NCBI RefSeq assembly: GCF_000332195.1
Contig: NZ_KB235922.1
Span: forward strand, 1,760,211 to 1,824,210
From: Pleurocapsa sp. PCC 7319
Lineage (GTDB): Bacteria; Cyanobacteriota; Cyanobacteriia; Cyanobacteriales; Xenococcaceae
DNA length: 64,000 bases
Direction of reading: 5' to 3'
The translations under genes and the position numbers were made by a program. Below, piece by piece: positions 54,633 to 64,000 of the stretch. The notes under the pieces were generated by a model that worked only from the letters and a program-made list of their open reading frames with translations, ran no database searches and was not told the DNA's origin. Each line of letters begins with the position of its first letter. Positions within the stretch are counted from its first letter, which is position 1.

Positions 54633-55007
54633 TTAATCTTCTATGAAATAATCAGAATCTATTTTCTTGACTTCGTATCTAGCAATTGGCGCAACACCAA
54701 CATTATGCTCTATCATCAATTCTGTTAATCTATTACCATCAACTAAAATAATTTTACTTTCAATACGAGAGACATATTCAATAGCGTCTTTAGTAAAATC
54801 GGAAGTAGTTATAAATATTCCTTTTTTAGCTCTTTGTCCTTGAAGCGCGCCAGCGAATTTTTGTATTTCTAGTCTGTCTACAACATTCTGACATCTTTTA
54901 GCTTGCAGATAGATAATATCTAAACCCAATCTATCTTCTTTAATAATGCCATCAATTCCTTCATCTCTAGAACATCTTAAAGCTTGACTTGTTTCTTTTC
55001 TTCTTAA
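54633..55007 (-). pseudogene. Truncated Mrr-type restriction endonuclease
   Basis: The open frame reads SRDEGIDGIIKEDRLGLDII, then YLQAKRCQNVVDRLEIQKFA and GALQGQRAKKGIFITTSDFT: the catalytic core of Mrr (RDxGIDG with Asp, QAK). The N-terminal Mrr_N DNA-binding domain is absent because the frame closes with TGA at 55008-55010. The 3' half including VDGNRLTELMI is intact. An N-truncated remnant is the simplest reading. Confidence 0.75.
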
Positions 55008-60260: not shown

Positions 60261-62801
60261 ATGTTTAATCAAGTTGCAGAGCGGAAAATGCATGTTTTTC
60301 GCTATATTTTAGTAGTTAGTTGGCTACTATTAATTCTGTCATTATTTATCGATCCAATCTCTCCATTATTAACCGATCCTAACAGTAGTTTTTTTAGTCC
60401 TTTAAAAGATAATCTGATTAATCTAGCTCAAGACCCAGAAACCTGTATTCGGGTTCAAGGGAAATGTTTGATTTCAACTCCCTACGCAGTCGGAGCGAGA
60501 CTGTTCTGGGGATTTATTGTTCCCAGTGCGATCGCCATTGTTTTTGTTTTGGGACATGAAACTTGGCGGAGAATTTGTCCTCTATATTTCCTGTCTCAAA
60601 TTCCTCGGGGTTTGGGAATGAAACCCCGCAAGAAAATAGCGCAAAATAAGTGGTTAGTAGAAAATCATCTTTATTTGCAGTTTGCCCTATTCTTTTTAGG
60701 GCTAAATATGAGGATTCTCTTTATTAATTCTGCTCGTCCTGTATTTGGTTTCTTTTTACTCTTTACTATAGCTTCGGCGATCGCAATTAATTTTATCTAT
60801 GGTGGTCGTAGCTGGTGTCATTATGTCTGTCCCTTTGGTATGGTACAGATGGTATTTACTGGACCAAGGGCACTTTTAGGTAGTGAAGCACAAAAAGAAC
60901 CAGCAAAAACCATTACTCAATCAATGTGTCGCACCTTCGATCCAGAGACTAACAGTGAGAAAATAGCTTGTATTGGCTGTAAATCTCCCTGCATGGATAT
61001 TGATGCCGAAAAAGCTTACTGGGAACAACTAACTAAACCAGGTCGTAGACTTGTTCAATATGGTTATTTGGGATTAGTTTGTGGCTATTTCCTTTATTAT
61101 TTTTTATACTCAGGTAATTTTAATTATTATTTTTCAGGTGCTTGGACTCATGAAGCTGGTCAAGTAGCAAAGGTTCTCCATTCAGGTTTCTATTTTGGTG
61201 GACAAGCAATTCCTATTCCCAAGTTAATTGCTTCACCCCTGACCCTAGCTATTATGGTCGGCATTTTTTATGTTGCAAGTAGCAAAGTTGAAAAAATCTA
61301 TGGTGCCTATCTCAAAAAACAAAACCCTGATATCGACCGCAAAATAATTTTGCATCGGGTTTTTACAGTAGTTACTTTCCTCTCGTTTAATGCCTTTTAT
61401 GTCTATGGTGGCCGTCCTGAGATTCTGCGCCTTCCCGTATATGTGCAGATATCCTTTAACGTTTCGGTAGTTTTAGTCAGTACTTTTTGGCTATACCGTA
61501 CTTGGGGGCGTACCGCTAATCAATACAACCAAGAAAGTATTAGTGATAAACTTCGTCGTCAATTGCAAAAACTCAAAATCGATTTTACCAGTGTTCTCGG
61601 TGGTCGTTCAATAGATAACTTGAAAGCAAATGAACTGGAGTTATTAGCCCAAGTCCTACCTAAAGTGACCCGACAAGATCGTTTGCAAGTTTATCATGGT
61701 GTTCTCGAAGAATCTCTCCAAGCAGGTAACATAGAAGCCTCTAATAGCCTTCATGCTTTGGAATCGATACGTAAGCCTCTGGCAGTCACAGAAGAAGAGC
61801 ACTTTGCTATTTTGACTGAGTTGGGTATTGATGATCCTAATTTACTCAAGTCTCCTCAAGAATATGCCCAAGAAGAAAGACTAAAAATCGAAAGCTATCA
61901 GGAGGCACTTACGGGATTACTTCAGGAATTAGTAGATAGTGGAATGCCTGTCCATGAAGCGGTGGAAGCCAAAACAAAGCAAATTAGTAATCTGAAGAAC
62001 CAATATAATATCACCAAACAAGAACACCTACGGGTATTGGACGGACTATTTAATTCTCTACGCCCCAAAGCTGAGAAGCTCCTAGCACTAGTACAAGTAG
62101 AAAACTCTCGTTATCAGATAATTAGTGACTTTCAACCTCATAGCAATGCACCAATCTTTCATCTGTTAGGCAAATTATTGCTGGCAAAAAAACAATTGAT
62201 TGTTACCCCCCTCTTGGCAGTATTAGAATTACTAAAGGATGAACCAGATGTAGTTCCACTGGCTCGTAGGACAGGTATTTTAGCTCCACACGCGATCGCC
62301 CAGGTTTTTGCTACTGAACCCCAATGGCAACAGCGTTTAAATCCACAAATTCTCCGAGAATTAATTCCCAGTAACTTAAATAATAGCCAAATAAATGTGA
62401 TTCAAGACGAAGAAGCTGAAACTTTAAAAGATCGAGAACCTTTCTTGGCACAAGCAGTAGAGGATGTTCTATTAGAGTTGTTACAAGAGCCCAATCCTAT
62501 TACCGAATCAGTAAGCCTATATGCTTTAACTCAACTCAATCAAACTCAGGGGTTAGCTAAAGCTCAACAAATACTCCAAAAACCGTTTTCAGATGATTTA
62601 GTTAAAGACACCGCTGCTAGTCTTTTGGCTCCATCATCCAAAGGTGGGGTAATTGAGCAATTACTGAGTATCTCCAGGCAGCCTCATTTTAAGGCAATGA
62701 CACCAGAGCAATTATTGAGCATCTCTCAACACCCTCATTTTAAGACGATGCCACCAGAACAGTTACTGTCTCTTTTGAAACAGATACAGATCAATGATTA
62801 A
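60261..62801 (+). CDS. NapH/NosR-like membrane 4Fe-4S protein with helical C-terminal extension
   Basis: 846 aa. Residues ~1-430 are a membrane domain with about nine helices and iron-sulfur ligands on the loops: RRICPLYFLSQIPRGLG, SWCHYVCPFGM and IACIGCKSPCMDID (the last a CxxCxxxC cluster plus a more distant Cys). This is the NapH/NosR/RdxA-type polyferredoxin layout for passing electrons across or to the membrane. Residues ~430-846 are cytosolic helices: two related modules ending in EEEHFAIL and KQEHLRVL, a HEAT-like region, and two repeats of PEQLLSISxxPHFKxM at the end. ATG with GAGGAATAG upstream. The reductase gene follows 77 bp later. Substrate is unknown. Confidence 0.85.
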   Translation: MFNQVAERKMHVFRYILVVSWLLLILSLFIDPISPLLTDPNSSFFSPLKDNLINLAQDPETCIRVQGKCLISTPYAVGARLFWGFIVPSAIAIVFVLGHETWRRICPLYFLSQIPRGLGMKPRKKIAQNKWLVENHLYLQFALFFLGLNMRILFINSARPVFGFFLLFTIASAIAINFIYGGRSWCHYVCPFGMVQMVFTGPRALLGSEAQKEPAKTITQSMCRTFDPETNSEKIACIGCKSPCMDIDAEKAYWEQLTKPGRRLVQYGYLGLVCGYFLYYFLYSGNFNYYFSGAWTHEAGQVAKVLHSGFYFGGQAIPIPKLIASPLTLAIMVGIFYVASSKVEKIYGAYLKKQNPDIDRKIILHRVFTVVTFLSFNAFYVYGGRPEILRLPVYVQISFNVSVVLVSTFWLYRTWGRTANQYNQESISDKLRRQLQKLKIDFTSVLGGRSIDNLKANELELLAQVLPKVTRQDRLQVYHGVLEESLQAGNIEASNSLHALESIRKPLAVTEEEHFAILTELGIDDPNLLKSPQEYAQEERLKIESYQEALTGLLQELVDSGMPVHEAVEAKTKQISNLKNQYNITKQEHLRVLDGLFNSLRPKAEKLLALVQVENSRYQIISDFQPHSNAPIFHLLGKLLLAKKQLIVTPLLAVLELLKDEPDVVPLARRTGILAPHAIAQVFATEPQWQQRLNPQILRELIPSNLNNSQINVIQDEEAETLKDREPFLAQAVEDVLLELLQEPNPITESVSLYALTQLNQTQGLAKAQQILQKPFSDDLVKDTAASLLAPSSKGGVIEQLLSISRQPHFKAMTPEQLLSISQHPHFKTMPPEQLLSLLKQIQIND

Positions 62802-62878
62802 GAGAGCTCAGATCTGAAATAACCTTAATGGTTAAAAAATTTATTTTCACATTAACATTATTTGTATAGAGGAAAACC

Positions 62879-64000
62879 ATGCCAGAAATCATACTTATTG
62901 ATACTAGAAAGCCCCAGGAAACAAAATCAATTTTACTGACTCCTGAAAACCAACTAAATCAAGAAAGTCTTTTAGGTCGAGATGGGCGTAGCTGCATTGT
63001 TCTAGATGATTCCATGGCTAGTCGTACCCACGGTAAAATTGCTTTCCGCAATGGTAGTTATTACTACTCAGACTTGGGTAGTAGAAATGGTTCTAAAATT
63101 AATAACCTAGATATCAAACGTAACCAAGAATATTTATTAAAATCTTTAGATACTATTACTGTGGGGCGTCATCTCTTGTGGGTCAAAGCAATTAATAATG
63201 GACAAGAGACTCCGACTGTTCTTCAGTCATTGACTCCTGACCAGTATATGCCCCTGGCTACTATTGATACTACCAGCCTAGAAACTTGGACTCAGGGGAA
63301 AAAGCAGCTTAAATGTGTACAGATTATCAATGAAACTGCTGATGTGAAGACTTTTAGCTTCATCTCTGACCCTCCAGTTAAGTTTAACTATCAACCAGGA
63401 CAATTTGTTACCCTAAGTTTGGATATTAATGGTAAAAAAGTTAAACGTTCTTACTCAATCTCTTCTACCCCTTCTCGTCCTCATAGTCTTGAAATTACTG
63501 TCAAAAGAGTTCCTGCACCCAGAGATGAGCCTAGCGCGCCTCCAGGATTGGTAAGTAATTGGTTGCACGATCACATGAGAGTCGGTAGTCAGATTGAGGT
63601 CAATGGACCAATGGGCAAATTTACCAATTTTGCTAATCCTTCTAATAAATTACTCTTGATTTCCGCAGGTAGCGGGATTACACCGATGATGTCAATGTCC
63701 CGCTGGATCTGCGACACTGTATCAAATATAAACATTGTTTTTGTCCATAGTGCCCGTAGCCCAGAAGATATTATTTTCCGACAGGAGCTGGAAATGATGT
63801 CAGCTCGCTATCCTAACTTTGAGTTGGCTATTACCATAACTCGCCCCCAATCTGGTCAATCCTGGTGTGGTTACACGGGTAGAATTAATGACACTATCTT
63901 ACCGGCGATCGCCCCCGACTATAAAGAGCGTACTGTGTATGTATGTGGTTCAAATCCTTTTATGAAAGCTACCAAAGAATTGCTGCAAAAAATTCATTTC
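62879..64000 (+). CDS. FHA domain-flavin/NAD(P)H oxidoreductase fusion (3' truncated)
   Basis: 374 codons in one frame up to the last base of the window, no stop reached. Residues ~25-100 are an FHA domain: LLGRDGRSCIVLDDSMASRTHG, SDLGSRNG, with the Gly-Arg, Ser-x-x-His and Asn residues for phosphothreonine binding. Then a ferredoxin-NADP-reductase module: RSYSISSTP (FAD), VNGPMGKF, ISAGSGITPMMSM (NAD(P)) and YVCGSNPFM. The RNF/HCP-reductase type usually continues with a 2Fe-2S domain; that part, if present, is outside the window. GAGGAAAA seven bases upstream of ATG 62879 is a good ribosome site. It follows the membrane iron-sulfur gene and is likely its partner. Confidence 0.9.
   Translation, partial: MPEIILIDTRKPQETKSILLTPENQLNQESLLGRDGRSCIVLDDSMASRTHGKIAFRNGSYYYSDLGSRNGSKINNLDIKRNQEYLLKSLDTITVGRHLLWVKAINNGQETPTVLQSLTPDQYMPLATIDTTSLETWTQGKKQLKCVQIINETADVKTFSFISDPPVKFNYQPGQFVTLSLDINGKKVKRSYSISSTPSRPHSLEITVKRVPAPRDEPSAPPGLVSNWLHDHMRVGSQIEVNGPMGKFTNFANPSNKLLLISAGSGITPMMSMSRWICDTVSNINIVFVHSARSPEDIIFRQELEMMSARYPNFELAITITRPQSGQSWCGYTGRINDTILPAIAPDYKERTVYVCGSNPFMKATKELLQKIHF

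Follow-up and report, generated by a model that had tools for sequence, protein, structure and literature searches.

Membrane modules of the NapH/NosR/RdhC superfamily are believed to shuttle electrons between quinones and redox enzymes, and the NapH and NosR proteins are recognized by two CX3CP and two 4Fe-4S motifs (PMC5928378). In GbcB, Hcr and NqrF, FAD/NAD domains and a 2Fe-2S ferredoxin feed a partner. Electron export driven by NAD(P)H is the task of the NADPH oxidases (NOX, DUOX and plant RBOH), which are under EF-hand or kinase control, the EF-hands being carried by NOX5 and plant RBOH. In a different field of regulation, the Hanks-type Ser/Thr kinases that control FHA proteins of the GarA/OdhI type recognize E/D-x-T motifs. 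GarA itself is a substrate of a Hanks-type kinase (PMC6213207).

Here, we describe a gene pair that recalls all of these systems. It lies in a 64,000-nucleotide stretch (the window, G000:C7:1760211-1824210, forward strand) of the 7.39 Mb genome of Pleurocapsa sp. PCC 7319. Gene A (60261-62801, + strand, 846 codons) is an open frame of a wide cyanobacterial family and encodes a membrane Fe-S protein; after a gap of 77 bp between the open frames (62802-62878, +) it is followed by gene B, whose residues 1-374 of 569 lie in the window (62879-64000, +). By sequence comparison, the pair is most similar to those of Pleurocapsa and Waterburya. An earlier note on this DNA knew of no described pathway with these parts and, in the literature searched, which lay outside the subscription journals, neither such a pathway nor a description of the A-B pair was found.

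Our best explanation, to which we give somewhat better than even chances, is that A and B work together as a single membrane unit for electron transfer, made conditional by a kinase-dependent FHA contact. B would take electrons from NAD(P)H through FAD and then its own 2Fe-2S centre. The Fe-S centre on the cytosolic side of A would receive them from B and deliver them to an acceptor located in or beyond the membrane. The FHA domain of B would bind a threonine that a Ser/Thr kinase has phosphorylated, so that B and A would not meet unless this kinase is active. The threonine-rich tail of A itself would probably be the ligand in one clade. Cofactor loading, electron direction, phospho-binding and acceptor are parts of this model that we infer.

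The Membrane Fe-S Protein A

The core of A (residues 1-430, 60261-61550, +) is predicted to have eight helices, arranged around loops with conserved cysteines. This count comes from AlphaFold models whose quality allows no further use: with a pLDDT of 62 for the whole protein and 60 for the core they are too poor for a claim on the fold, Foldseek searches with them gave no match at E ≤ 1e-3, and a profile search of A against the PDB returned only chance coiled-coil matches. From the charges of the loops, the cysteine loops and the C-terminus are predicted to be cytosolic. An alignment of 29 A proteins shows the conservation of C106, C186, C190, C223, C237, C240 and C244, to which a further conserved pair, C62/C69, is added in the first outside loop. 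The array C223-x13-C237-x2-C240-x3-C244 (60927-60992, +), invariant in all 29, is the presumed single [4Fe-4S] site, and H99 is the sole near-invariant histidine in the membrane core. A ferric-reductase domain, with the paired haem histidines of the NADPH oxidases, gave no Pfam match in A.

The earlier note had called A NapH/NosR-like. The resemblance stands, since the Pfam domain Fer4_5 is found above cut-off at residues 165-198 and the protein combines, as NapH, NosR and RdhC (PceC) do, a membrane module with a CX3CP-type motif and a cytosolic 4Fe-4S motif; membership does not. Only the second CX3CP motif is present (C186-x3-C190-P), the position of the first reading W102-x3-C106-P in all aligned A proteins, and the only 4Fe-4S motif is the one given above, whereas NapH and NosR have two of each; moreover, the NapH model TIGR02163 scores 12.3 bits against a cut-off of 213. 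A is therefore, as judged from motifs and profile scores, a relative of the NapH/NosR/RdhC superfamily and not a NapH or NosR member. It also departs from the superfamily in other ways: its helices are more numerous, its long cytosolic extension carries exchangeable signal modules, and a periplasmic FMN domain is missing.

This helical C-terminal extension (61551-62798, +) had been described as two related helical modules with a HEAT-like part. The likeness between the modules is weak, its score being reached by three of 500 shuffled sequences, and the HEAT similarity lies below the Pfam threshold (12.5 bits vs. 27.7). The repeats noted at the very end are real: three copies, read directly as EQLLSIS, PEQLLSIS and PEQLLSLL (62652-62798, +), with the EQLLS motif repeated only in the A proteins of the closest relatives. 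The proposal that these approximately 400 residues are the docking platform for the FHA domain fares worse, because the same extension is common to A proteins from genomes in which no B was detected and is thus not specific for B. There, it carries a cNMP-type domain, EF-hands or an FHA domain of its own, and the clade with the strongest kinase linkage has mostly lost it and has a threonine-motif tail instead.

Of the A genes fetched, 26 have a cNMP-type domain at the end, preceded in five of them (L096, L098, L107, L187 and L188) by an FHA domain. Five others (L111, L126, L127, L130 and L131) end in EF-hands; an A protein with an EF-hand pair may be a membrane Fe-S protein responsive to calcium. 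One (L136) ends in a ferredoxin domain, and Leptolyngbya-type A proteins end in a low-complexity tail. Cyclic-nucleotide sensing is not claimed, since the cNMP-type domains mostly lack the phosphate-binding arginine, which a motif scan saw in three of the 26, ten being unreadable. In several families, A genes with a cNMP-type domain adjoin an operon for a nitrate/bicarbonate-type ABC transporter (L104, where the ntrB and ntrCD models match, L122, L123 and L133; the same arrangement at L191 is judged by ORF sizes only); this neighbourhood of some unpaired A genes is not taken as the function of A. Elsewhere in the window, a short frame (54633-54929, - strand) looks, by eye, like the terminal part of an Mrr-type restriction endonuclease and is possibly a truncated gene.

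The FHA-Flavin Reductase B

The motifs that the earlier note had read in B (GRDG, SRTH, GSRNG, RSYSIS and GSGITPMM) are all present as written, and so is the fusion of an FHA domain with an FNR-type reductase. The whole protein of 569 aa ends beyond the window, at the equivalent of position 64588 (L048:7090-8799), and is composed of an FHA domain (residues 13-110), an FAD/NAD reductase (135-389), a Ser/Thr/Pro-rich linker and a plant-type 2Fe-2S ferredoxin (491-569). The FHA domain (62915-63208, +) is matched by Pfam with E = 4.5e-13 and 49.9 bits against a threshold of 20.7, and in alignments its phosphothreonine contacts are intact (G33-R34, S48-R49-x-H51 and N70-G71). FAD_binding_6 and NAD_binding_1 exceed their cut-offs in the reductase part (63281-64000, +), which continues past the window. 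The 2Fe-2S domain, which the earlier note had suggested looking for beyond position 64000, is there: it is marked by the C-terminal signature CGCRVGACGACK...C and matched by ferredoxin structures at E 4e-14, the fdx_plant model giving 54 bits, below its cut-off of 81.

GbcB and Hcr share the domain order of B; NqrF differs in that its ferredoxin is N-terminal and not C-terminal. B adds to the plan of all three an N-terminal FHA domain and the Ser/Thr/Pro linker, and stays below every family cut-off, with 370.8 bits against 500 for NF058606, the model of GbcB (the reductase of glycine betaine monooxygenase), and 82 against 295 for NqrF. B differs from GarA and OdhI, FHA proteins under Hanks-type kinases, in that its FHA domain forms part of a redox enzyme and has a membrane electron carrier as candidate ligand.

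Pairing and Distribution of A and B

A lies directly upstream of B in 23 of the 31 fetched B loci with readable upstream DNA, a count that includes L097, which holds only a fragment of A; the loci without an adjacent upstream A are L009, L036, L095, L099, L101, L102, L185 and L190. The neighbourhood is thus conserved, and the pair is also duplicated in the window genome, where a second complete copy (C7:4426151-4430334), about 50-53% identical to that of the window, has A and B overlapping by 4 bp. Neither of the outcomes that the earlier note had set against its own proposal, homologues that never cluster and an FHA domain lacking its binding residues, was found. Across 386 cyanobacterial genomes, strong A matches occur in 44 and B in 15; of the genomes with B, 14 have a strong A and the fifteenth an A fragment, and at the thresholds used 30 of the 44 strong-A genomes have no B. 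In L136, A is fused directly to its C-terminal 2Fe-2S domain. Adjacency, co-occurrence, duplication and this fusion together support the passage of electrons between the ferredoxin of B and A.

Some features of single loci can be added. In L097 (8931-10785) A is a fragment and B has no FHA domain, as if by joint decay. In L010, L012, L015 and L016 the pair is flanked directly by a sigma-70-type gene, upstream of A, and by a DUF1822 gene, downstream of B, and RTX-repeat proteins are encoded near the pair in L011, L012, L013 and L016.

Kinase Linkage and Proposed Phosphothreonine Gating

Ser/Thr kinases of several types are encoded near 14 of the 22 linked pairs (strictly 13, since the 14 include L018, which is not among the 22, starting inside B with its A not visible), vs. 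none of the 34 control loci with an unpaired A. These controls span 555 kb, for which 3.3 kinases would be expected from a density measured in other genomes. A PknB-like kinase is found, in more than one orientation, at nine Leptolyngbya-type loci (L018 included; eight are among the 22), mostly accompanied by a WD40 membrane protein; the naive chance of these nine is ~1e-10 at the measured one kinase per 167 kb. Three Pleurocapsa relatives have a kinase of another type three genes away, and CHASE2-kinases lie beyond B in G365 and G313. Among the 99 neighbouring proteins, Pkinase is the commonest Pfam family (6). Because loci of one clade share descent, and the control genomes did not contribute to the density, these numbers rank the evidence and are not strict probabilities.

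The tails of A point in the same direction. Eight Leptolyngbya-type tails hold 19 D/E-x-T-[VILM] motifs, vs. 1.2 expected, a count reached in none of 20,000 shuffles, with a motif chosen after the tails had been seen. The same motif is found, in several genomes, beside the presumed membrane helix of the neighbouring WD40 protein. A preset rule, that a kinase occurs exactly where A has a tail and no cNMP-type domain, failed at two of four new loci (L187 and L188).

These data could also be read in another way, in which the FHA domain constitutively serves as scaffold or tether and reads no phosphorylation, and the kinases are adjacent by chance of genome organization. Several linked pairs, that of the window included, have no kinase in the flanking DNA examined, the kinase block of the Pleurocapsa group can occur apart from the pair, and the binding residues are lost in the unlinked B proteins of L099 and L101. 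However, the binding residues are kept in linked B proteins, kinases of several types accompany linked pairs and none the 34 controls, and the threonine motifs are enriched; a purely structural role of the FHA domain seems to us improbable. Gating by phosphothreonine is plausible and, for the family as a whole, supported by these comparisons, and we lean slightly toward it.

For the window pair itself, the earlier suggestion that the reductase may depend on a Ser/Thr kinase holds through its relatives: kinases are linked to the A-B family, but the nearest one lies 171 kb from the window pair (8 kb from the second copy), and the window A, ending in its PEQLLS repeats, has no D/E-x-T-[VILM] motif in the tail. 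Phospho-gating of this pair is consequently a candidate, drawn by analogy from its relatives. The gene order in L008, kinase-145aa-anmK-A-B-ABC genes, joins a left side shared with L006 and L017 to a right side shared with the window, which makes it probable that the window pair once had a kinase neighbour and lost it. An orthologue of that kinase (77%) is found with the same neighbours at C7:3836117, 2 Mb from the window pair (L118). Since the kinase-145aa-anmK block persists at such a distance, the kinase adjacency in the Pleurocapsa group may be positional, and we give it less weight. The same genome has a dense run of about nine Ser/Thr kinases in 16 kb of a small contig (G000:C3:9934-25833).

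Neighbouring Genes and the Possible Electron Acceptor

Two kinds of enzyme recur directly beside the pair, in different lineages. A vanadium-haloperoxidase-like gene adjoins it at three loci (L050, which is the second copy of the window genome, L186 and L184), vs. ~0.05 expected. Such genes occur in 15 of 291 cyanobacteria, and in G318 and G373 no haloperoxidase was found other than the one beside the pair. The haloperoxidases beside pairs have the K-x-RP and SGH vanadate-site motifs, and those read have no obvious signal peptide. A lipobox-bearing Cu/Zn superoxide dismutase (SOD), of a lipoprotein SodC family found in 26 of 291 cyanobacteria, adjoins the pair at L187 and L188. A peroxidase-like ORF in L007, which proved to consist of a C-terminal domain only (42% identical), was not counted. 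The window genome has four vanadium-haloperoxidase-like genes, two in tandem (C7:3784556-3789068, C7:4423893-4425632 and C9:31260-33005).

A shared extracytoplasmic output of reactive oxygen would explain both neighbours, hinting at a controlled export of electrons to oxygen. A-B could then be a regulated exporter reducing oxygen outside the cytoplasm, an Fe-S-based functional counterpart of the NADPH oxidases; this would extend our explanation by naming the acceptor, with superoxide or H2O2 dismutated by SodC or used by the haloperoxidase outside. The EF-hands ending some A proteins, as in NOX5 and plant RBOH, fit such a role. Against it, A has a single conserved helix histidine and no ferric-reductase domain, hence no NOX-type haem pair, no periplasmic cofactor domain is visible, the haloperoxidases show no evident export signal, and 17 of the 22 linked loci, as well as the window pair, have neither haloperoxidase nor SOD. 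The likeness to NADPH oxidases, from which A-B also differs in being two proteins and Fe-S based, holds only if the output is oxygen. As A has no haem ligands and most pairs have neither gene, we keep oxygen as a rival to, or an extension of, our explanation, and consider it possible but rather unlikely. The fullest form of this scheme, in which a phosphothreonine-recruited reductase would drive oxygen-directed export through a non-NOX Fe-S protein, feeding a haloperoxidase (H2O2) or SodC (superoxide), with relatives switched by EF-hand, FHA or cNMP-type domains, is more speculative and, as a whole, unlikely.

The acceptor could instead be plastoquinone. A-B would then act as an NAD(P)H:plastoquinone reductase, tuning redox balance in the thylakoid or plasma membrane, and the haloperoxidase and SOD genes next to it would be incidental stress genes. 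NapH-type membrane modules have been proposed to exchange electrons with quinones (PMC5928378), the reductase of B resembles NqrF-type input modules, and there is no fixed terminal enzyme beside the pair. Yet no quinone site was identified in A-B, two kinds of extracytoplasmic oxygen-handling enzymes recur beside it, and A conserves the outside cysteine pair C62/C69; we hold this role of A-B to be a tentative and somewhat doubtful one.

Significance

Taken together, the comparisons suggest that A-B is a candidate for an undescribed, signal-controlled route that would push electrons into or across the membrane. To our knowledge, the targets of Hanks-type kinases in cyanobacteria are largely unknown; phosphothreonine control of a redox enzyme at a membrane electron carrier, if true, would tie the signalling of these kinases to the redox balance of the cell. 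Of 16 phytoplankton strains, among them several cyanobacteria (Synechococcus and Prochlorococcus), 14 have been reported to produce extracellular superoxide in a manner sensitive to flavoenzyme inhibitors, and the available part of that report names no cyanobacterial gene for it (PMC12684733). If the acceptor is oxygen, A-B would be a concrete pair of candidate genes for the extracellular superoxide of cyanobacteria.
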